Shown here: positions 21,263 through 36,375 of the stretch, piece after piece
Layout: each line of letters opens with the position of its first letter
Position numbering within the stretch: the stretch's first letter is position 1
Origin: Roseofilum halophilum BLCC-M91
Lineage (GTDB): Bacteria; Cyanobacteriota; Cyanobacteriia; Cyanobacteriales; Desertifilaceae
Assembly: GCF_030068445.1 (NCBI RefSeq)
Contig: NZ_JAQPOK010000160.1
Span: 1 to 40,438 of the forward strand
Direction of reading: 5' to 3'
DNA: 40,438 nt
The notes under the pieces: model-generated
The model's input: the letters and a program-made list of their open reading frames with translations, nothing else
Databases searched by the model: none
What the model was told of the DNA's origin: nothing
Position numbers and translations under genes: made by a program

Positions 21263-22060
21263 TTATCGGCGAATCAAAACCGCCATCCCTTTATGCAGTT
21301 TACGTTGCAGGGAAAAGGGCAAAGAACCGGTAAATTTTTCGATGCCATCCACTACCCCCTTGGGCAAAATTTTCAAGAGATATTCGAGTTTAATATGGCC
21401 ATTGGTTAAGGAATTGGTAAACAAGCGAATTTCTTCGATTTCTAATCCCGCTTGCTTCACCAGGGGCGAAATTTCATCGGTGTGCATCAGAAAAATATGA
21501 CCATCCGAATTGGGGCTAAATTGTTGTTCTTCGTACAAAGATGGATCGGGACAATCGGAAAACTTGGGTAAATTATGGCGAATATATTCCCCATTGGGCG
21601 TGGTCATCACAATATACCCTCCTGGCTTCACCAATTGGGAAATTTTTTGCAGAAATCGATCGGGATGGGCTACATGCTCAATAATTTCCGTAATCAAGAC
21701 CACATCAAAGCAAGAATCAAACCCTAAATCAAATAAATTACCAGGGGCATACTCAATATTGCCCTTTTCATACTTCATTTTCACGTAATCTACTAATTCC
21801 GATCGCAAGTCATTCCAAGTCACTTGGTAGCCCAATTCCGCCAGCCACAAACTATAATTGCCTTGAGAAGCTGCCACATCTAACACCTTAGCTCCCGGTT
21901 GGGCCACTTTTTGCACCAAATCAATCACCACCTGACGGCGATTCTGGTAAGCATAGGTATGACCCAGAATCCGGCGATCGCCATAAATTTCCATCTGGTC
22001 ATAGTAAAATACTTCTTGCCAACTTGCGGGGGATTCTGGGGGAAGAGCGATCTGCTTCAT
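21263..22060 (-). CDS. class I SAM-dependent methyltransferase
   Basis: 265 residues with a Rossmann-type methyltransferase core. SAM motif I is VLDVAASQGNYSLWLAE (about 60-76), the acidic end of strand 2 is WNDLRSE, and ITEIIEHVAHPDRFL is motif II-like. LVKPGGYIVMTTPNG is the post-motif strand. The acceptor cannot be named; its place at the edge of the glycan region suggests a sugar or lipid-linked glycan. AGGAGA lies 9 bases before the ATG. It is divergent from the following glycosyltransferase and convergent with lptC. Confidence 0.88.
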   Translation of the reverse strand: MKQIALPPESPASWQEVFYYDQMEIYGDRRILGHTYAYQNRRQVVIDLVQKVAQPGAKVLDVAASQGNYSLWLAELGYQVTWNDLRSELVDYVKMKYEKGNIEYAPGNLFDLGFDSCFDVVLITEIIEHVAHPDRFLQKISQLVKPGGYIVMTTPNGEYIRHNLPKFSDCPDPSLYEEQQFSPNSDGHIFLMHTDEISPLVKQAGLEIEEIRLFTNSLTNGHIKLEYLLKILPKGVVDGIEKFTGSLPFSLQRKLHKGMAVLIRR

Positions 22061-22118: not shown

Positions 22119-23324
22119 ATGAAAATTCTTATGCTTTCCTCCACTTTTCCTTACCCCCCTAGTCGGTCAGGAACAGAAGTGAGGACGTTTAATCTGCTTA
22201 AATATTTACAAAAAGACCATCAAGTAACCGTAGTTGCCCAGCGATCGCCCGATGTCACTGATGAAGATATTACCGGTTTGCAGGATCATGTCAGCGATCT
22301 GAAGATTTTTCCCATTCTCGCCGATGAGCGCAAAGGGGCGATCGCCAAAGGAAAGCGCCTATTCTCCTCGTTCTGGGAAGGAAAACCCCAAAATGTGATT
22401 CACCGTTACCTCAAGGATATTCAAACCCTGGTTCTTGAAGGAGTGGAGCAGGGTAAATACGATGCCATTACCTGCGAACATAGTGCCAACGCCGTTTATT
22501 TACGTCCAGAGCTAAAAAATCGGGTGGGGATGGTGGTGAATGTCCATAGTTCCATGTATTGGGGAACCAAAAATGCCATTGATACCGGAGCGTCCGAAAA
22601 CCCCTGGCGCGATCGCCTGTATTTACCCGTTCTCTACCGCTACGAAAAACAATATTCCCAAATTACAGACAAACTGGTTGTCACTACAGTAGATGACCAA
22701 AAACAACTGCAAATTTTTGCCCCGGCTTCTAAAATTGAAGTCATTCCCAATGGCGTAGATCTAGAGTTATTTCCCTATCGAACCCACGATCCTGGCGGTT
22801 ATACCTTAGCCTTTGTGGGATCAATGGACTTAACCCACAACATGGATGCAGCCATTTTCTTTGCCAAGAAAGTCTTACCCCAACTGCGCCAGCGCTATCC
22901 TGAAGTCAAATATCGCATTATTGGCAATCGTCCGACTCCTCAAATTAAAGCCTTAGCCAACCAACCCGGTGTAGAAGTCACTGGAAGAGTCCCCTCCATG
23001 GTGGAAGCGCTCCATCAAACCACCATCTGTGTCGTCTCCTTACAAACCGGTTTTGGCATTAAAAACAAGACCCTAGAAGCCATGGCAGCCGGTGTACCGG
23101 TTGTGGGGAGCGATCGCGGTTTAGAAGGACTCGATGCTGATAGCACTGCCTTGCGAGCCAATACGGTAGAAGAGTACATTGAAACCATTTCCCGATTATT
23201 TGAGAACCCCGAACTCAGAGCCAAACTCTCTCAAAATGGTCGCAAACTCATTGAAGATCGGTTCACTTGGGAACAGATGGGCAAAAAATATGAAGAAACT
23301 TTAGCAAACGCTCGCTCAAGGTAA
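22119..23324 (+). CDS. glycosyltransferase family 4 (GT-B)
   Basis: 401 residues. The N-terminal MLSSTFPYPPSRSGTEVRTFNLL is the acceptor-side Rossmann start of GT4 enzymes. The C-terminal nucleotide-sugar domain has LAFVGSMDLTHNMDAAIFF and the E-x7-E-like element IKNKTLEAMAAGVPVV. The family transfers a sugar with retention to a growing glycan at the inner membrane; donor and acceptor are unknown. The gap after it (23325-23401) holds a CCTTTTG-type short tandem repeat. Confidence 0.9.
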   Translation: MKILMLSSTFPYPPSRSGTEVRTFNLLKYLQKDHQVTVVAQRSPDVTDEDITGLQDHVSDLKIFPILADERKGAIAKGKRLFSSFWEGKPQNVIHRYLKDIQTLVLEGVEQGKYDAITCEHSANAVYLRPELKNRVGMVVNVHSSMYWGTKNAIDTGASENPWRDRLYLPVLYRYEKQYSQITDKLVVTTVDDQKQLQIFAPASKIEVIPNGVDLELFPYRTHDPGGYTLAFVGSMDLTHNMDAAIFFAKKVLPQLRQRYPEVKYRIIGNRPTPQIKALANQPGVEVTGRVPSMVEALHQTTICVVSLQTGFGIKNKTLEAMAAGVPVVGSDRGLEGLDADSTALRANTVEEYIETISRLFENPELRAKLSQNGRKLIEDRFTWEQMGKKYEETLANARSR

Positions 23325-23383
23325 AAGAAAACAGTGGGAGAAAAGGGCGAAACTAGCTTTTTCCCATTCCCCATTCCCTCTTA

Positions 23384-23402
23384 CCTTTTGCCTTTTGCCT
23401 TT
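23384..23402. repeat. CCTTTTG short tandem repeat
   Basis: ACCTTTTGCCTTTTGCCTTT, with a 7-base period. Such short tandemly repeated repeats are frequent between genes of filamentous cyanobacteria. A second copy lies at 39523-39550. Confidence 0.8.
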
Positions 23403-24352
23403 CAACGATAGAGTTCCTGAACCCATTTCCATTCCTGAGTTAACCCCTCCTCTAGGGAAACTTGAGGCTGATATCCGATCAGTTTATTGGCTTTAGAAAC
23501 ATCGGCACTCGTATGGCGAGCATCTCCCATGGCGCGATCAATGTGGTTTCTACGGATAGGTTGACCCACAATTTTTTCCATCGTATCCAACACATCCGTC
23601 AGTACCACCCGACTGCCACCACCAATATTAAAAATTTCCCCCACCCCATCAGTCGCCGTTGCCGCCGCCATATTCGCCGCCACAGCATCCTTAATAAACG
23701 TGAAATCCCTCGTTTGTTGACCATCTCCGTAGACATCGATCGCCCGATCTTCCAAAACAGCCTTGTAAAATTTGTGAAACGCCATATCCGGACGTTGACG
23801 GGGGCCATACACCGTAAAATACCGGAGTGCCGTAAACGGAACCTGGAAATTTTGGTGATATAACACACATAACCGTTCCGCCGCTAACTTCGTAATCCCA
23901 TAGGGAGAAACCGGTTGGGGAGGAATCAGTTCCGAAGTCGGAAAGGTTTCCGCATTGCCATACACGGAAGAGGTAGAAGCATAGACAAACCGCTTCAAGG
24001 TCTTCACAGTTTTTGCTGCTTCCAGCATAATTTGAGTGGCGTTAATATTCCGTTCCGTATAGGAGCGAAACCCTTCCCCCCAACTCGCACGCACCCCCGC
24101 TTGCGCTGCTTGGTGATAAACCACTTCTACATCGGTAAGCAGGGAATTCCAGTCTAAGGTTTGAATATCCCCTTCTACCAGCGTGAACTGCGGATGATTT
24201 TCAAAACTGCTGACATTCCGGCGTTTCAGCGTTGGGTCATAATAGTCATTAAATTGATCGATCCCAATCACTTCTTGACCTTCATTGAGTAAGGTTTCCG
24301 CTAAGGTGGAACCGATAAAACCCGCCACACCGGTTACAATTACTTTAGTCAT
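23402..24352 (-). CDS. NAD-dependent sugar-nucleotide epimerase/dehydratase
   Basis: 316 residues, extended short-chain dehydrogenase fold. NAD-binding motif GVAGFIGS at 8-15, the catalytic STSS at about 126-129, and Y151xxxK155 (YGITK). ALRYFTVYGPRQRPDMAF is typical of the UDP-glucose/UDP-glucuronate 4-epimerase branch. It supplies an activated sugar for the neighbouring glycosyltransferases. The exact substrate is not decided by sequence. It is slightly shorter than classical GalE. Confidence 0.88.
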   Translation of the reverse strand: MTKVIVTGVAGFIGSTLAETLLNEGQEVIGIDQFNDYYDPTLKRRNVSSFENHPQFTLVEGDIQTLDWNSLLTDVEVVYHQAAQAGVRASWGEGFRSYTERNINATQIMLEAAKTVKTLKRFVYASTSSVYGNAETFPTSELIPPQPVSPYGITKLAAERLCVLYHQNFQVPFTALRYFTVYGPRQRPDMAFHKFYKAVLEDRAIDVYGDGQQTRDFTFIKDAVAANMAAATATDGVGEIFNIGGGSRVVLTDVLDTMEKIVGQPIRRNHIDRAMGDARHTSADVSKANKLIGYQPQVSLEEGLTQEWKWVQELYR

Positions 24353-24401
24353 TATGAAGATAGTTTTTAGCTCTCATTTCTGGACAATTATAAAAGATGA
24401 A

Positions 24402-25319
24402 TTAACCGATGATGGTTTTCTTAATCTTTCTCAGCTTTTGTTTCCATTGGGGTTCTGGTTTGGGCGCTGGAGGATCGGCCGGAGGATTGGGATCGCCAAG
24501 ATAGCGGTAATATCTCCAAATATTCCAATAGGGACAACCGGGTTCAATCCGCATCCCTGCCCAGTGAAGATATTGTAGGGGTTGGTTCGTTTTGGGGTCA
24601 ATTAAGGTATTTCCCTGTTGCTGGAAATGGGGACTGCCTGCCCAACTTCCTGGTGCTTTTCCGGGTCTGCGAACGACATTAAAGCGCCGGTTAATTCGCT
24701 TTAGGATCGTATAGTTAATGATGGGCTGATCGGAGGTTTTTTGACTAAAGTCGAAGTATTCAGGATGTTGGGCGCATTCGGTAAAGGCTTCATAGAGATC
24801 GGTTTCGCTCAAGAAGTTCTTTTTAGAGGCCCAAAATCCACAGTTAAAGATGTCTTGGAGATCGGTTGGCGTAAATACACCGTCTTCAATCACTTTGTTG
24901 GTAAATACGTTGGTAATGCCACCAGCATGTTGATAGTCACAACACAGAAAGTCGTATTTGTCAAGATAATTGAGGTTGTCGATAATCTTTTCAAAAACGA
25001 CGATATCAGTATCAATATAGAGAAATTGATCGAAGTCTCCAAACCAACAGGCTTGTTTGCGGAATTGGTTGGGACGGGCGAAAAAGCCTTCACCAAAGAT
25101 ATCATAGAGCTTTTGAGAGAGCCGCTTAATGAAGTCTAGATCTCCGTATAGAGATACTCCATAGTCGTTTTTGAGTCTTTGGGCAATATTCTGATAGTTG
25201 TCGTCATAGGGAATCAGGACGACGGGGGTATCTTGGTCGTAATATCGGATACTATTGAGGAGGGCGATCGCCTGCTCGGTAAATTTATCGTTTGCTGTAA
25301 TGTAAATTCCACGATTCAT
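24402..25319 (-). CDS. Npun_R2821/Npun_R2823-family glycosyltransferase
   Basis: 305 residues. It starts MNRGIYITANDKFTEQAIALLNS and has a DxD-type metal motif in LYIDTDIVVFE (near residue 100). Late family signatures are NCGFWASKK and LQYLHWAGM. Fold and motifs fit a GT-A transferase (GT8-like); no member's reaction is known to me. It starts 2 bp after the stop of its upstream paralogue. AGGA, which straddles that gene's last codons, lies 8 bases before the ATG, so the two are very likely coupled. Confidence 0.85.
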   Translation of the reverse strand: MNRGIYITANDKFTEQAIALLNSIRYYDQDTPVVLIPYDDNYQNIAQRLKNDYGVSLYGDLDFIKRLSQKLYDIFGEGFFARPNQFRKQACWFGDFDQFLYIDTDIVVFEKIIDNLNYLDKYDFLCCDYQHAGGITNVFTNKVIEDGVFTPTDLQDIFNCGFWASKKNFLSETDLYEAFTECAQHPEYFDFSQKTSDQPIINYTILKRINRRFNVVRRPGKAPGSWAGSPHFQQQGNTLIDPKTNQPLQYLHWAGMRIEPGCPYWNIWRYYRYLGDPNPPADPPAPKPEPQWKQKLRKIKKTIIG

Positions 25320-25321
25320 GA

Positions 25322-26335
25322 TTACTTCCTAGAGGTCTTCATCCCTAATTTGCGAAACACTTTATCCATAAATGTGGGAGGTGGGTTATAGGGTTTAGGT
25401 TTACCAACAAATTGAGGTCGTTTCTCTGGCTCATGGAGATAACGATAGTGCAAGAAAATATCTCGATAGGGAAAGTCTAAGTTTTCTCCAGCACAGAGTC
25501 GAGTAAACACCTTAGAAGATATGCCAATATAGTGCAGGTAAGTGAGCTGTACCCCTTTATCATAGAGCAAATGATCCCGTTGCTCAAAGTGAGGAGAAGT
25601 TACGGAACATCCCGTGGTTTGCTCTTTGGGGAGTTGTAAGGAAAAGTTATACGCTGGATGATTAGAGCGCATAGTCATATAGTTCAGGATAGACTGATCC
25701 GGCCCATTGGGGTATAAAATTTCTGCTTCACCTGATTCCAATTGCTGGAGTAACCACTCTCGCGTTTCTTTAGGAAACAATCCTCGTTTAGAGCCATAAA
25801 ATCCAGCACAAAAAATCTCCGAACTTAAACGCTCTTGTGGAAAAATTTTCCCAACCTTCTCAGAGTTGATATTATAAACATGACTGAGATCTTTATATTG
25901 GAAATCATAGACCACAAAATCTCGATCGTTGATGCGATCGAAAATAAAATCTAACTGATTTAAAACCAGTACATCGCCATCACAATAAATAAATTTTTCT
26001 AAAGGACTATTTTCATCAAAAGCACAAAACCTCCGATGCATTCCCAAACGATTAACACCTTGAATTCCTCTTGAGTTCCAATTTTGTAAAGCAGAAGGAT
26101 GTCCCTTCCAAATTTCGTAAGCAAAGTCTTCCCATCGAGAAAGAATCTCTTCATCACAGAGAAGCTCTACATTGTTTCGACTTTTGACTAAATCCTGAAT
26201 TTGGTTTAAGCGGTTATCATAAGGGATAATCCAAACGGGAAACTCTGGACTGAGATTAACTTCAATACTGTTTAACAGAGCCACCACTTGATCGTAGACG
26301 ACATCATTAGCAAGGGTATATATTCCATCAGTCAT
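25322..26335 (-). CDS. Npun_R2821/Npun_R2823-family glycosyltransferase, paralogue
   Basis: 337 residues, same plan as its downstream neighbour: MTDGIYTLANDVVYDQVVALLNS at the start, YCDGDVLVLN as the metal-binding motif, then CAGFYGSKRG and LTYLHYIGI. The two have diverged well beyond recent duplication. There is no Shine-Dalgarno in front of the ATG. Instead the start codon lies inside one arm of a 14-base inverted repeat whose partner is in the leader (see the separate entry). That may control translation of this gene and, through coupling, of the next one. Confidence 0.83.
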   Translation of the reverse strand: MTDGIYTLANDVVYDQVVALLNSIEVNLSPEFPVWIIPYDNRLNQIQDLVKSRNNVELLCDEEILSRWEDFAYEIWKGHPSALQNWNSRGIQGVNRLGMHRRFCAFDENSPLEKFIYCDGDVLVLNQLDFIFDRINDRDFVVYDFQYKDLSHVYNINSEKVGKIFPQERLSSEIFCAGFYGSKRGLFPKETREWLLQQLESGEAEILYPNGPDQSILNYMTMRSNHPAYNFSLQLPKEQTTGCSVTSPHFEQRDHLLYDKGVQLTYLHYIGISSKVFTRLCAGENLDFPYRDIFLHYRYLHEPEKRPQFVGKPKPYNPPPTFMDKVFRKLGMKTSRK

Positions 26336-26404
26336 AAGCTTATTATCTGTAGGTAAATACAGAAATTATGGAAAAACAGGTTTGTCTCCATTATGACTGA
26401 TGGA
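26324..26404 (-). promoter_or_regulatory. inverted repeat covering the start codon of the 25322-26335 gene
   Basis: TCCATCAGTCATAA (26324-26337, plus strand) is the exact reverse complement of TTATGACTGATGGA (26391-26404). In the minus-strand mRNA the upstream arm would pair with the first codons including AUG (26335-26333), with a 53-base loop. A 14-bp perfect match at this place is unlikely by chance, but its function is inference. Confidence 0.5.
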
Positions 26405-26472
26405 TTCTGACTTTGGCAAGGCTTGTCGGGTTTACAAGTAGTCTAAAAACAAAGATCGAGAAAATCAGTTTT

Positions 26473-27519
26473 TTATAATCCGTGATTTTTTAATCTCTTC
26501 AAAGATAGAACTCGTCGTTGTAAACTATTCCATTTGAGGGCTAGATAACGACCCATGAAAAATTTTTGCCGTTGCCAATCTGACAAACTGCGCCATTCTT
26601 CATAAGCAGGAACGCAAGTATTAAGTAAAAAGTCTTTCCATCGCTTAGTTATATTCTCTGGAGCTATTTCCTGGGCCCGTTGTTTACAGTTGTTAATCAT
26701 CGCTTGGCGAAATTGCGTATCATCTCGTAGACGTTTAAGCGCATTAACAGTTTCTTCATAGCTATTGACTTCGATATAGTCAAGCTCACTTTTTCTCTCT
26801 CCCCGAAAAGCAGACTCACGTCCTAAAATAGCTGGAACTCCTGCATTCCAAGCGTTAAAGAGTTTGGAAGCGGGTTTCCATGGATAATCTGTGCTATCGT
26901 TAAATGAGCGCACAGCAAGAATAGCATCTACTTCACTATAGTTATTCCAGCGATCGCGCTCTTTCTCCCGTCTCCAGTTTAACCCCATTTGCTTGAGCTG
27001 TTCCTTCCATTCGGGTTGAGAAAGTTCCGGTGCTAAATTATAAGTAATACCAAAGTAAGCGACATTCTCAAAGCGATCGCCTCTTTCTGGACTTCTCGGA
27101 ATAACCCCAGCTTGAGGCCAATGAGGTAAGTAAAATCGATCACTTGGCAACAAGTACCTATCTTCATCAATCGATTGAATCTGTAAAGATGGTGAATCGA
27201 CTTCACAAGCATTTTGTACTATATGGATTGGTGCATAAGGATGGGGATTTTGATCTCCCTTCACGCAAACCCAAAGCAGATTGGCAGGAGGTTTCGCTTC
27301 ATAAGGCAAAGAGTATCGATAAGCAACAACAATCCCCTCCTCTGGCATTTCTGGAATCAACTGGCAAGAAAATCCACTTTCTTGTAAGCGCAAATAAGTT
27401 TGTAAAATCCAGCTTCCTAAAACATCCGATGGACGCAGGTCTTCTGCTCTATCAGGAATGACTTGTGGCCAGTCACTCCGAGGAATATAAAAGTATATTT
27501 TAGGTTGTTTTTGTATCAT
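26473..27519 (-). CDS. putative glycosyltransferase (GT-B-like)
   Basis: 348 residues from ATG 27519, which has GGA 10 bases upstream; a longer frame to 27564 adds 15 residues without a signal. The N-terminal KIYFYIPRSDWPQ begins a Rossmann-like half. The C-terminal half has PWKPASKLFNAWNAGVPAIL, the nucleotide-sugar-binding element of GT4/GT1-type enzymes, and ends in a basic amphipathic tail that may bind the membrane. The family is not certain. It stands between the Npun pair and the remnant, and a divergent promoter region separates it from the latter. Confidence 0.72.
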   Translation of the reverse strand: MIQKQPKIYFYIPRSDWPQVIPDRAEDLRPSDVLGSWILQTYLRLQESGFSCQLIPEMPEEGIVVAYRYSLPYEAKPPANLLWVCVKGDQNPHPYAPIHIVQNACEVDSPSLQIQSIDEDRYLLPSDRFYLPHWPQAGVIPRSPERGDRFENVAYFGITYNLAPELSQPEWKEQLKQMGLNWRREKERDRWNNYSEVDAILAVRSFNDSTDYPWKPASKLFNAWNAGVPAILGRESAFRGERKSELDYIEVNSYEETVNALKRLRDDTQFRQAMINNCKQRAQEIAPENITKRWKDFLLNTCVPAYEEWRSLSDWQRQKFFMGRYLALKWNSLQRRVLSLKRLKNHGL

Positions 27520-27606
27520 AAAATTTAATTCCAGACATTTTGAGATCATATAGAAGTATATCAATTATCAAATCATTAAGGTAATTCAGTAAACTTAATC
27601 AAATAC

Positions 27607-27635
27607 TTGACAAAATAGCCTTTGAGTGTTATATT
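27607..27635 (+). promoter_or_regulatory. near-consensus sigma-70 promoter
   Basis: TTGACA (27607-27612), a 17-base spacer, then TATATT (27630-27635). It points into the sulfotransferase remnant and the GT61 gene, with transcription expected from about 27642. One of the best matches to the bacterial consensus I noticed in the window. Confidence 0.7.
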
Positions 27636-27647
27636 CAGTATTTATAA

Positions 27648-28241
27648 TGCTTAAAACTTGATAGAGAAGTTATAATTGATGCCACTAAATTTTATCCCTT
27701 TGTGGAGAAGAAGCTTAAGGCTAGAGAATTTAGAACTGGGGCAGTTGAAGCCTATTTATTACACCTAGTTAGAGATGGAAGAGCAGTCCTCAATTCTTTT
27801 CTACGCAGATTTGATGAAATGAATGTTGTAGACTTTACTGAGCGGTGGGTACAAAAGACTAAGGGAAGGCAGGCTTATTTTCATTCATTTAGAGAAGATA
27901 GAAGAATAGAAGTTGCCTATGAAGAGTTAGCGAGTCAACCCCACCAAACCATTCAAGCCATTTGCCAATGGATTGGCATAGAATTTATAGAGGATATGCT
28001 AGAATACTGGAAGTACGAGCATCACGACATTTCTGGCAATGATGGAACTTACTCTTTAATTAGACGCTACCAAGGCAAAGAAATGCTAGATAAAGTACGT
28101 AAAGTTCATGGAGAATATTACGAGAAACGAGACTTATCGATTAAATTAGATTTACGCTGGAAGAAAGAGTTATCCCCAGAAAATTTAGAAATATTTAATC
28201 GCATTGCTGGAGAAGTCAATCAACCTTATGAGTGGAATTGA
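27648..28241 (+). pseudogene. sulfotransferase remnant lacking the PAPS P-loop
   Basis: The frame is open from 27648 and reads KLDREVIIDATKFYPFVEKK, then the 3'-phosphate-binding element LLHLVRDGRAVLNSFLRR and a normal C-terminal domain (VAYEELASQPHQTIQAICQW). Family-like sequence begins before the first possible start (GTG at 27702), so that start would cut a conserved strand. The first 60-80 residues, which carry the GxxKSGTS-type 5'-phosphosulfate loop, are missing from all frames upstream. It cannot bind PAPS normally. It is therefore probably a 5'-truncated gene, though a short protein from GTG 27702 could still be made. It is not a copy of the intact sulfotransferase at 32094. Confidence 0.7.
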
Positions 28242-28269
28242 GAAAACAGGATGAGAAGGCAATTAAATT

Positions 28270-29439
28270 ATGAACCTTATTCAGGGAATTAAATCTCACT
28301 TCAAACTTAACGGATTACTAGGAACCCTAAGTGATAGATATTTACATTCTTTATTGGTTAAATTAACTACTATAGATAATGCATTTCCTAACTGTACAAA
28401 AATTAGACCTATTTCTCCAGGAAAATTCCCTACACCAGAAGTTGAGCAAATGTTGTTTTTTCCTAGAGCTGAGTCTCTGAAAAAGCCGACATATTCTTTA
28501 CCAGATATTTACTCAACCACACTAGATAATGTATTATACTCTCCTACTTATAATGTCATTCTGAACCAATCTAGGCAAGTAATTTTAGACTCAGTAAACA
28601 CAGGGAAGAGTGCCAAGAGATTTAGTGTTTCTGAATTATATCGCAAGAAAATCAAGACACTAAAAGGTGTATATAGTATATTTCGCTCTACAGACAATAG
28701 TTACTATCATACATTGATTGAAAATGTATCCAGACTTTATTTACTCAATCATAAAGACTATAGGGAAATTCCAGAAATTCAACTTTTATTGTCTAGCAAG
28801 TCAACAAAAATTGAAGAATATTATCTTGACCAAATGTTGCAAGACAATGTTACCATCAAAGTTGTTGAAGAAAATTACATATATTCGCTAGAAAAGCTTA
28901 TTTTTTGTACTTTTTTAAATCGCAGATTTTGTGGTTACTTACCATTAGAATATCTAGAGTATTTTGGAGATAAAATATTACCACAACGTTCTAGAGATAA
29001 GAATAATCGTATTTTTATATCGCGATCAACTGACTTAAAGAAAATTTTAGAAAAGACTAAAGGAATCGGACGTTATGAACAGGACAAAATTGGCAAAGGC
29101 CGTTATCTTCTCAATGAAGAAGAACTCTTTCAGTCTTTGAAAAAATATGGATTTAAAAAGCATGTTCTTGAAGAGCTATCTATCCCAGAGCAAATTGAGC
29201 TTTTTTATGATGCTGATTTTATAGTAGGCGCTCATGGAGCAGGACTCTCTAATATGATTTTTTCCGATCGAGTTAAAATTCTAGAACTATTTCCAACACA
29301 GTTCTGTGTCCCACATTATTATTACCTAGCGAAATCCCTTGGTCATACTTACAGATACTGGTGTGGGCAGGAGGATGAAATTCATTCTAACTTTACCGTC
29401 AACGTTGCAGAGGTGATTTCTCGTTTAGGCGATCTCTAA
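28270..29439 (+). CDS. glycosyltransferase family 61 (DUF563-like)
   Basis: 389 residues. The GT61 signature GAHGAGLSNMIF is near residue 320, preceded by the family's NNRIFISRS and ELSIPEQIELFYDADFIVG. It also has the early NSYYHTLIENVSRLYLL. Enzymes of this family add xylose, arabinose or GlcNAc in eukaryotes; bacterial members sit in capsule and exopolysaccharide loci. It lies 28 bp after the sulfotransferase remnant and may share its promoter. The DNA is strongly AT-rich. It is convergent with the SGNH gene. Confidence 0.87.
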   Translation: MNLIQGIKSHFKLNGLLGTLSDRYLHSLLVKLTTIDNAFPNCTKIRPISPGKFPTPEVEQMLFFPRAESLKKPTYSLPDIYSTTLDNVLYSPTYNVILNQSRQVILDSVNTGKSAKRFSVSELYRKKIKTLKGVYSIFRSTDNSYYHTLIENVSRLYLLNHKDYREIPEIQLLLSSKSTKIEEYYLDQMLQDNVTIKVVEENYIYSLEKLIFCTFLNRRFCGYLPLEYLEYFGDKILPQRSRDKNNRIFISRSTDLKKILEKTKGIGRYEQDKIGKGRYLLNEEELFQSLKKYGFKKHVLEELSIPEQIELFYDADFIVGAHGAGLSNMIFSDRVKILELFPTQFCVPHYYYLAKSLGHTYRYWCGQEDEIHSNFTVNVAEVISRLGDL

Positions 29440-29483
29440 ACAGTAAACCAGTCAAAAAGATCCCCGATTTTAAAATAATCCTT

Positions 29484-30584
29484 TTAACGCTTGAAGGTCT
29501 GAATAAGTTCAATAGCATCGGGATTATTTTTCCTCCATACTTCCCGATCGCCACGAATTAGACCTAAATGCTCTTCAATATTATTAGAATTGATTAATAC
29601 ACCAAAGTCATTCGGTACAGTATCTTCATTATGTTGCAAAATCCGATTGAGTATTAAATCTCCAACCGGGATAGTAAAGTGAGAGCTATCTCGATATTGA
29701 GTCATCTCACTACTTAAGGGTTCTGTGGTAACGCTATTATAGCCTGAGAAATCCCAAACCGGCATGATCTTTACAATTTCCCTTTTTCTGTCTTCTATCT
29801 TGGACTCACCAGCGGCTATAGTAGCTCCTTCAAATTGAATTGCGTGAGGGGGAGTTATAAATACCCTTAAATTTAAACCATGTTCTTGACAAAGATCTCT
29901 AATAATTCTGATATTTTCTAGAGTCTCTGGTACGATGTCATTTTTTTTCTTATTCACAATAAATGGAAGCCAATGAGTGAATTTTATATCAATATAGCCA
30001 ACATCTCTAAGACCATTAGGATGATAATAGATAGTATCTGGTTTTTGCCTGTTTTTTCCCAGAGTTTCTAAGCTTTTATTGAAAGTATTCCAAGAGAGAT
30101 GGGTTTGTAAAAATTCTAATAGACGCAGATGATGTTTTCCAATTCGGTTTTCATCAAATCCAAGTTGGGTAGATTCTGGAAGAGCCAGCAGCCATAAGTC
30201 TATCCCAAAGATAACCACTTCCAGATTGTTCTGAGTCGCGATCGCATGTTCTAAATAACGTCTTTGTTCATAAAAGGTTCCTCCTTGCATCGCTAAATTG
30301 TAAACGGGTTGATACTCTGCTAATGCTGGAGAGTCTGGATTTAAGGCTTCCTCTAACCGAGATGCACCCAAAAAAATAGTTTTAGCATCCTGGCGAGTTA
30401 AATCAATTGCCTTATAAAGTCTAGTGTTATTTATGGTTTCAGGTTTAGACTGATTTATCCCATGAATCCTGGGGCTATTGGTGACACCAAAAGGATCAAT
30501 CAAAGCATTAAACCCGATAACCAGTGAAGAACCGCAACCAGCAACGGCCAAGAATATATAAATAAAGCTCCGATAGGGTTTCAT
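29484..30584 (-). CDS. SGNH/AlgJ-like protein partnering MBOAT
   Basis: 366 residues with an N-terminal membrane anchor (about 8-28). Blocks of an SGNH hydrolase-like fold are visible: FLGASRLEEAL in the position of the nucleophile Ser, VIFGIDLWLL, and the C-terminal DSSH (DxxH) in YRDSSHFTIPVG that would give the Asp-His pair. Such proteins work beside MBOAT acyltransferases, moving the acyl group onto the sugar in the periplasm, as in alginate acetylation (AlgI with AlgJ/AlgX). Last gene of the minus-strand operon, 7 bp after the MBOAT stop. Confidence 0.78.
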   Translation of the reverse strand: MKPYRSFIYIFLAVAGCGSSLVIGFNALIDPFGVTNSPRIHGINQSKPETINNTRLYKAIDLTRQDAKTIFLGASRLEEALNPDSPALAEYQPVYNLAMQGGTFYEQRRYLEHAIATQNNLEVVIFGIDLWLLALPESTQLGFDENRIGKHHLRLLEFLQTHLSWNTFNKSLETLGKNRQKPDTIYYHPNGLRDVGYIDIKFTHWLPFIVNKKKNDIVPETLENIRIIRDLCQEHGLNLRVFITPPHAIQFEGATIAAGESKIEDRKREIVKIMPVWDFSGYNSVTTEPLSSEMTQYRDSSHFTIPVGDLILNRILQHNEDTVPNDFGVLINSNNIEEHLGLIRGDREVWRKNNPDAIELIQTFKR

Positions 30585-30591
30585 CTAAACC

Positions 30592-32079
30592 TCAAAATTG
30601 AAAATAAAGAAATTCGCTGACTTGGTTTAATGAAAGCAAGCAGACTAAAATCATACTACCTGCTCCAACAGCCCACCACCATCTGGGTTGAAAATTTTCC
30701 ATTATTTCTTGAGTGTTAGGTAGCCATATTGCTCCAGCAAGGAATGCCAGGATGATGGATAAATTTATTCCTAGGCTGGTGGCATCAGTACCGGGAAGGT
30801 AGGGTAAGGCAGAGAGCGTTTCTTGCCCCTTAAATTGTATTCCTAGTGGAGTTAACCAAGAGAGAAAGAGTTCAAAGTTACCTGGTAAGATAATCCCTTT
30901 CATACCACTCGCAGCTTGAATCATCAATGCTGCTTCTTCAAAACTGCTAGATCGGAATAATATCCAACCCATAACCACTGCAATAAACGTAATTAACCAC
31001 GCAAGGAATAAAGGTAATTTCATACCCAATCGTTGCCACTGGCGATCTATGACCAAATAGAGGCCATGAAGCCCTCCCCAGACAACAAACGTCCAACCTG
31101 CACCATGCCAAAGTCCTCCTAAGAACATCGTAATCATTAAATTCAAGTTTCGTCGTACTTCTCCCTTGCGGTTTCCTCCCAGCGGAATATACAAATAATC
31201 ACGGAGAAAGTTTGATAAAGTAATATGCCACCTGCGCCAAAAATCAGAAATAGAAATTGCTTTGTAGGGAGAATTAAAATTAATCGGTAATTCAATATTA
31301 AATATCCATCCCAAACCGATCGCCATATCTGAGTAGCCAGAAAAGTCAAAATAGAGTTGTAAGGTATAACATAATGCCCCCACCCAGGCTTCAATAAAAC
31401 TAACTTGACTAGCATGATTGAATACTTCTGCTACCCAAGGAGAAAGGCGGTCTGCAATTAGCATTTTCTTACCTAATCCAAGGGTGAATAACACTAACCC
31501 CTTAGCAAAATTTTTATCGCAAAAAACAAATTTACGTTTTTGCCAAAATTGCGGTATTAATTCATCATGACGCAGTATGGGCCCAGCAATTAATTGTGGG
31601 AAAAAAGATACAAATAAACTATATTCAAGAATTCCATATTTTTTCGTTTCACCGCGATAGGCATCGACTAAATAGGCAATTTGGGTAAACGTATAAAAAG
31701 AAATTGCTAAGGGTAAAACAATATTGGGTACTGAAAAACTTGTAGAGAATAAGTTGTTAACTGATTGAGTTAAAAATCCAGCGTACTTATAATACCCTAT
31801 AAACCCTAAGTTTATACTGATTCCAGTCAGCAGTAGAAACTTGGATTTTTGACTTCCCTGTTCGCTTGCAGACAATCCCCTCCCAATCAAAAAATTTGTA
31901 AAAATTGAAATCAGGAGAAGAGGTAAATAGGCGATATTCCAATATCCATAGAAGAAGAATGATGTTACTACGAGCCAAATGATTGCAGCTAACGTCAGAC
32001 GTAATTTGGCCAGACCAAAAAATCCAATTAACGTAAGTGGCAAGAATAAGAATATAAATACATGAGAGTTAAATAGCAT
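30592..32079 (-). CDS. MBOAT-family O-acyltransferase (AlgI-like)
   Basis: 495 residues with about eleven membrane segments. The MBOAT landmarks are DFSGYSDMAIGLG (245-257), SDFWRRWHITLSNFLRDYLY (278-297) and GGLWHGAGWTFVVWGGLHG (321-339). His325 and His338 match the conserved histidines. It moves acyl groups (usually acetyl) across the membrane for O-acylation of an exported polysaccharide. It sits between the sulfotransferase (14 bp) and its SGNH partner (7 bp). Confidence 0.93.
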   Translation of the reverse strand: MLFNSHVFIFLFLPLTLIGFFGLAKLRLTLAAIIWLVVTSFFFYGYWNIAYLPLLLISIFTNFLIGRGLSASEQGSQKSKFLLLTGISINLGFIGYYKYAGFLTQSVNNLFSTSFSVPNIVLPLAISFYTFTQIAYLVDAYRGETKKYGILEYSLFVSFFPQLIAGPILRHDELIPQFWQKRKFVFCDKNFAKGLVLFTLGLGKKMLIADRLSPWVAEVFNHASQVSFIEAWVGALCYTLQLYFDFSGYSDMAIGLGWIFNIELPINFNSPYKAISISDFWRRWHITLSNFLRDYLYIPLGGNRKGEVRRNLNLMITMFLGGLWHGAGWTFVVWGGLHGLYLVIDRQWQRLGMKLPLFLAWLITFIAVVMGWILFRSSSFEEAALMIQAASGMKGIILPGNFELFLSWLTPLGIQFKGQETLSALPYLPGTDATSLGINLSIILAFLAGAIWLPNTQEIMENFQPRWWWAVGAGSMILVCLLSLNQVSEFLYFQF

Positions 32080-32093
32080 CTTCTTATTTATTC

Positions 32094-33002
32094 TTAGTTA
32101 AGCCAACTCGATAAATCACGCCCAATGAGATCTTGTAGATTTAAAATATCTTCCCGATATTCTACAATCAGTTGCTTCCGCAACTTGTTGGATAATTTTG
32201 GTTTCCCTAAATTTTTCTCTTTGAGTCGATCTGCAATCGTTTTCCGAAGACCCATAGGTAGTATCGTTTTAACTACAGCTTTAATAGGATTAGGTCGGTT
32301 TAGCAGGGTATTGACTGTCTGATTCTTGGGGACACGAGTCGGGTTATGTTTCTTGCTCACATTGGGAACAAAACTATCATCGACTTCTAAGAATTGGAAA
32401 ATATCTTTCATCAGTCCAGTGGTATCTTTAATCAAATCTTCATACAGATACACTCGAATTTGGTTTGCATCGAAAAGATCGAAGTATCGCTTTAACTGAA
32501 CATAGTAAAATCCCCGGCGTTTATGATGCCATTGAAAACTCCAATCTTTAGCGACTCGATCGTCTTCTGCCTTAAGGGTTTTGGCAAAATCTGGAATCGG
32601 TTCTCGACCATTACTTAAGGAAAATAGAAAGTGTGAAAAAGCTCGTTCTGCTGGATGCCGAAGAATGGCGATGAGTTTTGCATCAGGAATGTGATTATGA
32701 ATCCTCTGAGGGGCCTTTTCACTATAAATGTATGAGGTGGATGCTTCGCCTATGGCTTTCTCGTTTGTGACTCCTGCAAACAATTCACTATAACTTTGTA
32801 AATCAGTGATGGCATTGGTCATTACATGAGGGCCATAAGGGCCTATCCGATTAATATCTTCTCCTTCTAAAGTAAAAAAATCTGGCTCCTTTTGATCTCT
32901 AGAAGCTGGCATATAGATTTCCGGATGCTGCTTCAGATAATAATACAGAGATGAAGTTCCTGATTTAGCTGCGCCAATCAACAAAAAGTTTGGGAGTTTC
33001 AT
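32094..33002 (-). CDS. PAPS-dependent sulfotransferase
   Basis: 302 residues. The 5'-phosphosulfate loop is GAAKSGTSSLYYYLKQHP at 10-27. The 3'-phosphate site is AILRHPAERAFSHFLF, with the conserved Arg and Ser. It resembles heparan-type carbohydrate sulfotransferases and keeps all key elements, so it should be active. The operon with a glycosyltransferase (11 bp upstream) and MBOAT (14 bp downstream) points to sulfation of an extracellular glycan. Confidence 0.92.
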   Translation of the reverse strand: MKLPNFLLIGAAKSGTSSLYYYLKQHPEIYMPASRDQKEPDFFTLEGEDINRIGPYGPHVMTNAITDLQSYSELFAGVTNEKAIGEASTSYIYSEKAPQRIHNHIPDAKLIAILRHPAERAFSHFLFSLSNGREPIPDFAKTLKAEDDRVAKDWSFQWHHKRRGFYYVQLKRYFDLFDANQIRVYLYEDLIKDTTGLMKDIFQFLEVDDSFVPNVSKKHNPTRVPKNQTVNTLLNRPNPIKAVVKTILPMGLRKTIADRLKEKNLGKPKLSNKLRKQLIVEYREDILNLQDLIGRDLSSWLN

Positions 33003-33013
33003 AATGTCTACAC

Positions 33014-34093
33014 CTATCCAATTTCATCAATCCACAACTGGGAAACTTTATCCCAAGTTTCTTTTTGGGCTAGTTGCATAAAGTCTTGCCTGAGAGATGC
33101 TAACTGCTCTGGTTCTTTGAGTAACTCTACAATTTTCCATGCAAGAGCCTCTTGTGTTTCTTTAAGATAAGGATTTCCGGGGATTTTCAAACAATAATCT
33201 TTATCTTTAAGACCAGCATAATCTGTGGTCACTGGTATGCAGCCTACAAAAGCTGATTCACGAACTGTATTGCAATCTGTTTCTTGAAAGGTACACCCAT
33301 AATAGTTGATTATTGAAGTTGATTTAGCTTGCATGAGTTCTAATCGTCCTAGTTTTCCTTGATTAATGACTCCAGGTAATTGCATTAATTGCAACATTTT
33401 GTCTTTCCATTCTGGTTTTGCTTCTCTAGGCCAACCATAATAGATATGCAGGGTAGCTTCTGGTATTTCTTTTTGAATTATTGGCCAACCAAATTCTAGC
33501 ATCTTATCTAAGCCTCTAATGTAATTAGAAGCATAAATCAGTTTATAAGGCTCTTTAGGATTTTTGGCTAGATGTAGAAAAGATGGATCGACTCCATTGG
33601 GAATGACTACGACTTTATGATCTGGAATTTCTGTCAGGGTAGAGCGATGAAAACTTGTTTTACAAAAAATAAGGTCATAATTCTTTAGTTTTTCATATTG
33701 AGCTTCTTCAGGTAATAAAACACCCTTTCCTAAATCTAGCCATACTCGGTTTGCTTGAACGGGAAACTTAATTCTCCAAGCAAATTGCCACATAATTAAG
33801 GTATCAAAACTATCATAAGGATTAAACTTAGAGTAGTGAAGATACTGGACTCCATCATAAACACCTTCTTGAGAACCACAATTATTGTAGACTGTAACAG
33901 AATACCCCAGTTTAACCCATTCACGAGATAGATATATAATGCGTGCGTTAGCGCCTCCTAATCCAGTTTTTAGGCTCTGAGGAGACCATGGATACTTTGT
34001 GTGTCCTGTATAGTATACGATAGAGCGATGCGGCCAATTTTTTGGGGTCAACCTTTTTCTGAGGCTACTGATTTTAGATAAAACTTTGTTCAT
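33014..34093 (-). CDS. glycosyltransferase, GT4-like
   Basis: 359 residues. The N-terminal TGLGGANARIIYLSREWVKLGYSVTVYNN is the glycine-rich acceptor-side loop. VVVIPNGVDPSFL is the domain linker of GT4 proteins. The donor-side C-terminus reads YGCTFQETDCNTVRESAFVGCIPVTT, where a Glu-containing element replaces the usual ExFG. First gene of the probable four-gene minus-strand operon, with the promoter presumably in 34094-34250. Confidence 0.85.
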   Translation of the reverse strand: MNKVLSKISSLRKRLTPKNWPHRSIVYYTGHTKYPWSPQSLKTGLGGANARIIYLSREWVKLGYSVTVYNNCGSQEGVYDGVQYLHYSKFNPYDSFDTLIMWQFAWRIKFPVQANRVWLDLGKGVLLPEEAQYEKLKNYDLIFCKTSFHRSTLTEIPDHKVVVIPNGVDPSFLHLAKNPKEPYKLIYASNYIRGLDKMLEFGWPIIQKEIPEATLHIYYGWPREAKPEWKDKMLQLMQLPGVINQGKLGRLELMQAKSTSIINYYGCTFQETDCNTVRESAFVGCIPVTTDYAGLKDKDYCLKIPGNPYLKETQEALAWKIVELLKEPEQLASLRQDFMQLAQKETWDKVSQLWIDEIG

Positions 34094-34247
34094 AAACTTG
34101 TGATTGAAATCAATTGTATACTCTTTTGAATAGCGTGGCTAAATAATATATCGATCATGCATAGCATTCCTTGGATCGTCAAGATGGGCAACTTTTCCTT
34201 TAGGCAAGGGTTATTATGAATCGAGGCAATACTTTTTCAGGAGATAG

Positions 34248-34269
34248 AGGGTGAACGACTGTTCACCCT
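34248..34269. repeat. 9-bp inverted repeat with tetraloop
   Basis: AGGGTGAAC-GACT-GTTCACCCT between the polysaccharide operon and the Psb32-like gene. No T tract follows on either strand, so it is not a standard terminator. It may be an operator or an RNA stem-loop. The remainder of 34094-34337 shows no gene. Confidence 0.6.
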
Positions 34270-34337
34270 TAAGTATCTGAAGTAAGTCTGTTAAGTGACT
34301 CCGATCGCCGCCAAGGGCTTGTTTTCCCATGTCTTTC

Positions 34338-35021
34338 CTACTGATAGAGCCAGAAATAGGTCACCATAGGGATCACCGTAGCCAAAATCAGCAAGACAAT
34401 CACCCAAACGGTAGCATTAGAATTTTTGGTTTCTTCTGCCGAAGCAAAGGTGCTTTCAGCTTGGATGGTGTCTTCAACCACGGGAGGGCCGGGATCGGGA
34501 TTACCGGATAAAATAGCGGTTAAGCGATCGCCAGCGCCTAAAAACGCCCGATTATAGCGATCGCCATTACGCAACGGCACTTGTATCGTTTCACTCGATA
34601 CACTTTCCGCCATCTCATCGGACAACCAGCTCTTCGTTCCCTCTCCCGTGCGAATCGCCGAATTATTAGTCACCACATCTAAAACCAATAACACCTGATG
34701 ACTCTGCTCCTCTGGAGTCGGAAACCACTTTTCAAACAAATCATTCGTAAAACTCTCAATGGTTTCCCCATAATCCAAACGACGAATCGTCACCAAGCGG
34801 ACTTCATTCCCCGTCTCTTGTGCCAACTGACTCAACCGATCGCTCAATTTCCCCTCATTTAAGCGACTAATCACATCCCCTCGATCCAAGATCCAAGTCG
34901 CCTCTCCCGGTTTAACCACAGGCATTTGATAAACCCCCGTTGCTTGTGCCGGTTGAGGATTCATCCACCACAGCAACAGAGTCAAAATACTTATTAATAA
35001 GCCTCGAACTATTTTTTTCAT
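34338..35021 (-). CDS. TPM-domain protein, Psb32-like
   Basis: 227 residues from ATG 35021; GAGGGA lies 9 bases upstream, and a TTG two codons earlier is also in frame. There is a signal peptide with an Ala-x-Ala type end (PQPAQA, about residue 26). A TPM domain follows (ILDRGDVISRLNEGKLSDRL, GNEVRLVTIRRLDYGETIE, VLLVLDVVTNNSAIRTGEG), and a C-terminal membrane helix (VWVIVLLILATVIPMVTYFW). This matches Psb32, a thylakoid-associated protein that supports photosystem II repair in Synechocystis. TPM domains may have phosphatase activity. Confidence 0.8.
   Translation of the reverse strand: MKKIVRGLLISILTLLLWWMNPQPAQATGVYQMPVVKPGEATWILDRGDVISRLNEGKLSDRLSQLAQETGNEVRLVTIRRLDYGETIESFTNDLFEKWFPTPEEQSHQVLLVLDVVTNNSAIRTGEGTKSWLSDEMAESVSSETIQVPLRNGDRYNRAFLGAGDRLTAILSGNPDPGPPVVEDTIQAESTFASAEETKNSNATVWVIVLLILATVIPMVTYFWLYQ

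Positions 35022-36303: not shown

Positions 36304-36375
<72 letters not shown>

Follow-up and report, generated by a model that had tools for sequence, protein, structure and literature searches.

Gene content of the AT-rich block

The window examined here is the whole 40,438-nucleotide stretch from Roseofilum halophilum BLCC-M91, whose genome (G000; assembly 95% complete) was compared with those of five congeners (G001 to G005, G005 being the sister species). The subject is a block of glycosyltransferase, sulfotransferase and acyltransferase genes at 23402-34093, overlapping an interval, 27081-34523, that is AT-rich and nearly free of the motif HIP1 (GCGATCGC). A first-pass annotation had taken this scarcity to point to recent acquisition or to a gene pool of different origin. 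Comparison across the genus makes it very probable that the locus is old in the genus, AT-rich and HIP1-poor, and that it was split ancestrally and then altered by single-gene exchange. The genes are as follows.

21263-22060 (-) and 22119-23324 (+): methyltransferase and glycosyltransferase GT4a (Pfam; 92-96% identity), which adjoin LptC in G004 and G005 too
23402-24352 (-): Epim, NAD-dependent sugar epimerase/dehydratase (Pfam Epimerase, 1.5e-55); left anchor of the block read as moved
24402-25319 (-): 24402 gene (GTman3), putative glycosyltransferase of the Npun_R2821/R2822 family (NF045582, 2e-100)
25322-26335 (-): 25322 gene, second Npun_R2821/R2822-family gene in tandem, putative glycosyltransferase (NF045582, 3e-127)
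26473-27564 (-): 26473 gene, putative glycosyltransferase (PF13524 Glyco_trans_1_2, E 0.0012, below the cut-off)
27702-28241 (+): ST1, truncated sulfotransferase (Sulfotransfer_3, profile positions 125-214 of 216 only)
28270-29439 (+): GT61-family glycosyltransferase (Pfam PF04577, 5.9e-21); GC 0.329, zero HIP1
29484-30584 (-): SGNH/DltD-like protein with an N-terminal helix (invariant residues, weak fold matches); carries the interval's sole HIP1 (30238)
30592-32079 (-): MBOAT (DltB-like) O-acyltransferase (Pfam, 3.2e-32); mosaic gene
32094-33002 (-): ST3, full-length sulfotransferase (Pfam, 3.1e-14)
33014-34093 (-): GT4b, GT4-type glycosyltransferase (Pfam PF13439); right anchor of the block read as moved

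A literature search on Npun_R2821/R2822 found no paper, and a PDB sequence search with the 26473 protein was without match. Compared with the full-length copies in G005, G004, G001 and G002, the ST1 open reading frame is missing residues 1-126 of 305; its DNA homology begins at about 27654, and none was found in the DNA further upstream. The missing N-terminal part is presumably the region of the 3'-phosphoadenosine-5'-phosphosulfate (PAPS)-binding loop, and ST1 is, judging by its sequence, probably dead.

Pfam upheld the names GT61, MBOAT, sulfotransferase and GT4 given by the first-pass annotation. The SGNH name, in contrast, had no Pfam match and weak fold support, and is the weakest of the gene assignments. 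Residues G73, S75-R76 and S301-H302 of this protein are invariant across 11 aligned relatives, and its structural model (predicted local distance difference test, pLDDT, 79) returned many weak Foldseek matches to GDSL/SGNH hydrolases and to 3bma, with none at E <= 0.001. We take 3bma (D-alanyl-lipoteichoic acid synthetase) to be DltD. The protein has no Pfam or NCBIfam name, and a PDB sequence search was empty. DltB/DltD and similar systems are MBOAT-SGNH acyl-transfer pairs. The present locus resembles them in its adjoining MBOAT and SGNH-like genes and in a partial match of the MBOAT protein to TIGR04091, but differs in that this match reaches 158 bits against a cut-off of 375 and the SGNH partner has a weak fold match.

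Composition of the interval and HIP1 turnover

The window contains 49 HIP1 sites, against a mean of 0.36 after shuffling. Only one, at 30238-30245, falls in the interval, just where a single site near 30240 had been reported; the other 48 lie elsewhere in the window, somewhat more than the roughly 40-45 that had been estimated. The edges of the interval are themselves HIP1 sites (27073-27080 and 34524-34531). GC content is 0.372 in the interval and 0.465 in the flanks, so that the described contrast with the flanks holds for both measures; the GC trough, at about 25-34 kb, is broader than the HIP1 gap. The whole genome has 6026 HIP1 in 4,848,095 bases, or 1 per 805.

In order to gauge how unusual the interval is, it was set against a background of 297,610 bases in 20 stretches of G000. 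The poorest of their 631 overlapping 7443-base windows held 3 HIP1, and the GC minimum among these windows was 0.408. Likewise, none of 345 two-gap spans reached at least 7451 bases, the longest being 5380. Single gaps of at least 3165 bases (7 of 365) and at least 4286 bases (3 of 365) did occur, and both gaps of the interval are thus matched singly. At the genome-wide rate about 9-10 HIP1 would be expected in the interval (P = 0.001); a GC-adjusted Poisson fit on 291 one-kb windows expects 5.0, with P(<=1) = 0.039. Low GC therefore accounts for about half of the interval's HIP1 deficit. For the entire AT-rich gene block 24402-34093, the count was 4 against 6.9 expected (P = 0.18). Since the interval was picked for its emptiness after the data had been seen, these P values flatter the HIP1 deficit. 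The HIP1 gap is real, and it is partly a consequence of low GC.

The composition is shared across the genus. The Epim-to-GT4b block has 38.8-39.7% GC and 0.36-0.62 HIP1 per kb in G000, G005, G004, G001 and G002, while the remainder of those five genomes' stretches has 0.76-1.58 HIP1 per kb. In G003, a stretch carrying ST3, GT4b and GT4b' (a divergent second GT4b-like gene) has 44% GC and 1.94 HIP1 per kb, and these gene families can thus hold HIP1.

HIP1 sites themselves change slowly. Core DNA of G000 and G005 (65,920 aligned bases, 90.5% identity) has 86 of 99 HIP1 sites in common, and in a three-way core alignment of 31,258 bases the G000 side showed 3 gains and 3 losses, with 35 sites kept in all. 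This corresponds to a gain of about 0.1 HIP1 per kb since the sister split, at which a 7.4-kb segment would acquire less than one site, the figures being small counts from core DNA of higher GC. With turnover so slow, HIP1 scarcity does not mean recent arrival, and the deficit would follow largely from the low GC common to the locus together with slow turnover.

A different cause would be active exclusion of HIP1 from the block, for instance if HIP1/CGATCG methylation or repair interfered with or marked recombining DNA. The GC-adjusted interval deficit is consistent with this, as is the tie between HIP1 and a CGATCG methyltransferase in the available text of PMC4390886. Nevertheless, the block from 24402 to 34093 lies within expectation, the G003 stretch carries HIP1 at a normal density, and no comparable deficit was present in 51 other loci, so that active exclusion is very unlikely. 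Those 51 loci are the ones of at least 18 kb among 80 named loci round relatives of the 24402 gene (the 80 being the best-scoring of 355 relatives in named genomes, each of them titled as a cyanobacterium). The proposition that glycan loci are generally HIP1-poor also failed on this set, the centre falling below the outer stretch in 17 loci and above it in 24 of 51. The GC of the 24402-type gene was below that of the outer stretch in 44 of the 51. It is conceivable, if doubtful, that surface-glycan genes form an order-wide pool turning over faster than genomes write HIP1 into genes; if true, HIP1 density would measure residence since the last exchange, and an old locus would stay permanently "young".

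Position of the block in congeners

In G005 (MetRS identity 95%), the Epim-to-GT4b block is flanked by the same GT4a and TPM genes as in the window. In G001, G002 and G004, the Epim-to-GT4b genes are followed in one locus by the divergent GT4b', another GT4 gene, an ABC transporter and a GT4 gene. This second half lies on separate contigs in G000 and G005; in G000 (contig C39) it includes the ABC transporter and another Sulfotransfer_3 gene. No polymerisation or export genes, Wzx, Wzy and PCP included, were seen in the half that lies in the window, no genome-wide search for Wzx or Wzy having been made. The other four congeners are without the G000/G005 arrangement in the stretches compared, leaving aside the TPM side in G004, where the TPM match was too weak to judge by (E 7e-5). 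Conserved placement in close relatives, which the first-pass annotation had proposed as a check, thus holds for the sister species and not for the other four. The two junctions concerned are as follows.

23325-23401: junction of GT4a and the epimerase gene, common to G005; in G004, genes of 224 and 658 aa come after GT4a
34094-34337: junction of GT4b and the TPM gene, common to G005; in G001, G002 and G004, GT4b is followed by GT4b'

The epimerase gene of G004 is on a different contig, beside 198-aa and 502-aa genes, and the TPM gene adjoins a 136/142-aa gene in G001/G002. The genes that once adjoined GT4a (224 and 658 aa) and Epim (198 and 502 aa) have other locations in G000 and in G005, and their surroundings there align at 88-91% from one genome to the other. 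Because these old junction neighbours sit in matching surroundings in both genomes, the split and the move came before G000 and G005 diverged.

Gene content varies among the other congeners. G004 carries every block gene except GT61. G001 and G002 are without GT61, SGNH and MBOAT at the locus, their nearest MBOAT genes (60-61%) being on other contigs, and G003 holds pieces, of which one contig carries Epim, 24402-type, 25322-type and ST2-like genes and another carries ST3 with GT4b. In G284, a genome of another family, a 33% GC stretch has homologues of 26473, an 890-aa protein, ST1, SGNH (several), MBOAT, ST3, GT4b and GT4b' in a row; about four tandem SGNH copies, one broken, stand there beside one MBOAT gene (L171:7407-12634). 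The 890-aa protein combines AMP-binding, carrier and thioesterase domains, resembling a single nonribosomal peptide synthetase module (Pfam on the G004 copy, L034:6272-8944). Its gene is also present in the glycan loci of G005 and G284 (L171:3674-6340) and is missing from the G000 block.

These positions bear on the proposal that 7.4 kb were recently acquired as one genomic island from a low-GC, HIP1-poor donor. GC and HIP1 are clearly off the genome norm, several gene trees are discordant, and GT61 is orthologue-free in the five congeners. However, the same block with its neighbours stands in the same place in the sister species, homologous low-GC, low-HIP1 blocks occur in G001, G002 and G004, and the composition is common to four congeners. 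Furthermore, 25322, 26473 and ST1 are 88-93% identical to their G005/G004 counterparts. Signs of an integrase, att repeats or a tRNA end are also lacking: the two ends share no 13-mers, and no mobility genes were found among the 20 window proteins scanned (17.7-38.7 kb). A tRNA-Asn at 36304 is 2.2 kb outside; tRNA-anchored integration is disfavoured by the lack of repeats and by the TPM-Usp-YacP order, which G001, G002 and G003 also show, block-free at that site. Recent acquisition as a unit is accordingly highly unlikely.

Gene-by-gene exchange and the proposed history

The clearest exchange concerns the 24402 gene. Its best matches (70-78%) are in other families, against 53-56% to all five congeners, whose own 24402-type genes are 77-95% identical among themselves. 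In the tree the congeners cluster (100/99) with a second version from other genera and families, and G000 groups with a first version, a set of 9 (96/99). The approximately unbiased (AU) test rejected grouping of the gene with the congeners (p 9e-40) on a set of 31 rows that took in 14 further, more distant versions and omitted some near-duplicates. In 150-base windows, identity between G000 and G005 is 47-68% from about 24500 to 25300 and 85-95% on both sides of this. These comparisons indicate a sharp swap of about 0.8 kb, in which the 24402 gene gave way to a different ancient version known from other families. A 25322-type gene stands beside the 24402-type gene in 6 of 7 other-family stretches. 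One TAG was flagged in the 24402-gene homologues of family f7 (L117, L118, L119, L121, L123, L125, L126 and L131); it is probably an alignment-end effect, the reading frames of 301-311 aa being intact.

GT61 has partial matches only (29-40%) in G005 and G004 and none in G001-G003; at E <= 1e-25 it occurs in 12 of 291 genomes of the order, G000 included, the best other match being 55%. It occupies the place of ST2 and the 890-aa gene of G005 and G004. The sole match to ST2 in G000, an assembly 95% complete, is the ST1 remnant. A GT61 relic was considered in the 300 bases that follow ST1 in G005 and dismissed, all six frames having stops and no relation being visible by eye.

At the right end of the block, ST3 is 86% identical to G001, 82% to G003 and 65% to the sister G005, and a G000-G005 pair was rejected (AU, p 5e-44). 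GT4b is 68-69% identical to G001/G003 and 55% to G005, with the G005 pairing rejected (AU, p 1e-73). For GT4b', a gene of the other half, the grouping is with G003, and a pair with G005 was likewise rejected (p 3e-6). MBOAT is 84% identical to G005/G004; windows starting at 31050-31275 have 86-91% nucleotide identity to G005 and the remainder 65-83%. Between G005 and G004, identity is 98-100% from about 10.2 to 16.5 kb along the G005 stretch read in reverse, and 93-100% from there to about 19.2 kb. Third-position identity of this pair is 95-100% in the genes from ST1 to ST3, against 67-68% in MetRS and LptC, and the core tree rejects G005 and G004 as sisters (p 7e-5). By this measure the tract of about 6 kb is the product of a very recent cross-species exchange. 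As the block is placed differently in the two genomes, homologous exchange inside the block is the simplest route for it.

The remaining genes tell another story. Epim is 93-96% identical at the protein level to G005, G004 and G001 (in G003 it matches the G001 copy at 88%). The 25322 gene is 92-93% identical to G005/G004 and 71% to G001, and forms a clade with G005 and G004 (100/100); the 26473 gene is 88-90% identical to G005/G004 and 46% to G001. Third-position identity to G005/G004 is 72-79% for Epim, 25322, 26473 and the ST1 remainder, all four of which appear from these values to follow G005/G004 vertically. A gene pool of different origin, as first suggested, thus fits the 24402 gene, GT61, ST3 and GT4b, with their discordant trees or distribution, and by identity does not fit Epim, 25322 and 26473. 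The 24402 gene falls outside the genus by its tree and GT61 by its distribution, whereas ST3 and GT4b stay inside it beside an unexpected congener.

It could be argued that no transfer took place: local mutation bias or selection would keep glycan genes AT-rich and HIP1-poor, and rapid evolution would merely mimic discordance in their trees. The low GC is indeed constant across the genomes holding the block, and about half of the missing HIP1 can be put down to GC. On the other hand, the 24402 replacement is sharp and joins a supported other-family group, the G004-G005 tract is near-identical across species, and ST3 is nearer to G001 than to the sister. Evolution without transfer is quite unlikely on this evidence.

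The history we favour is one of an old locus, split and then exchanged gene by gene. The stretch would represent the left half of a surface-glycan locus that the genus has long possessed. Synteny shows that, in the common ancestor of G000 and G005, a rearrangement cut the locus between the two divergent GT4 genes and placed the Epim-to-GT4b block between GT4a and the TPM gene. Inside the block, genes would have been swapped with a broader cyanobacterial pool through homologous recombination, conserved neighbours serving as anchors; exchange rests on trees and identity, and recombination is the route we infer. On this view the 24402 gene was replaced, GT61 was gained with ST1 being cut short, and ST3 and GT4b are foreign alleles.

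Several observations weigh against this history. Support for the G000-G005 pair in the core tree is moderate (84/88). No mobile element, repeat or known mechanism that could account for the rearrangement was found, the search being for shared 13-mers in flanks of 300-400 bases, and the contigs are fragmented, so that the order of inversion events cannot be read. For the 24402 gene, a clade uniting the six congeners survived the AU test when 23 rows were used (p 0.597), the congeners standing alone on a long branch in that tree. As for composition, the GC-adjusted deficit of the interval is nominally significant still, the central 7 kb of the 51 named loci had 0.69 HIP1 per kb against 0.62 in the surroundings, and the HIP1-normal G003 stretch leaves room for a late arrival of ST3 and GT4b.

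The product of the locus is probably, from its gene content, a sulfated, O-acylated surface polysaccharide. The glycosyltransferases would build this glycan, ST3 would sulfate it, the MBOAT-SGNH pair would O-acylate it, and the ABC exporter of the other half would export it. With ST1 truncated and ST2 missing, G000 is predicted to sulfate fewer positions than G004/G005, unless others such as the C39 gene substitute, and GT61 is predicted to add another sugar. Allele swaps would change the coat, as O-antigen swaps do.

Several glycosyltransferases with modifying enzymes, and an allele mosaic with conserved anchors, are both O-antigen-like features; this is a mosaic O-antigen-like locus, ordinary in kind. 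Salmonella O-antigen clusters, in the portion of PMC3715488 available, are low in GC and move by recombination in shared genes. As there, the present locus has low-GC sugar genes, shared genes as anchors, alleles crossing lineages and the coat as the likely target; unlike there, it was split and moved within the genome and has sulfotransferases, with no Wzx/Wzy seen in the window half. The accessible text of the synechan study (PMC8205485) reports putative exopolysaccharide clusters with sulfotransferase genes from a variety of cyanobacteria, partial and ABC-type ones included. As far as that text describes it, the xss (synechan) cluster of Synechocystis PCC 6803 likewise combines sulfotransferases (PF13469/PF00685) with several glycosyltransferases, whereas the present locus has an ABC exporter in its other half and an MBOAT-SGNH pair, and no Wzx/Wzy/PCP seen. 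The locus offers a clean cyanobacterial example of coat variation gene by gene.

HIP1 scarcity together with odd GC or codon use is a published xenolog marker in a cyanobacterium (PMC3025956, in the part available), and HIP1 matters for oligomer-based detection of transfer (PMC3497702, likewise in part). The logic of the first-pass annotation was the same as in the former, and the published sign can be checked here: it flags a genus-old locus and misses the sharpest replacement alongside, the 24402 gene having GC 0.44 and one HIP1 and lying outside the flagged interval. The pointer does succeed for GT61, the gene of lowest GC. What is new is that HIP1 scarcity and true gene replacement are shown not to coincide in this locus, and the slow gain of sites, estimated from 3 gains only, is a simple reason for the marker's failure.

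Two further features were observed. At 43-341 of the window, a unit of about 75 bases occurs in four tandem copies, with scattered relatives in the G005 and G004 stretches (blastn). Contig C129 of G000 has a second low-GC, HIP1-poor stretch (L083:15436-18292; GC 0.37-0.39 in 3-kb windows, 14.5 to 16 kb), with genes identified by Pfam as GmrSD-N, HEPN (MAE_28990-like) and C-5 cytosine DNA methylase; it is a better candidate for a recent defence-type insertion.

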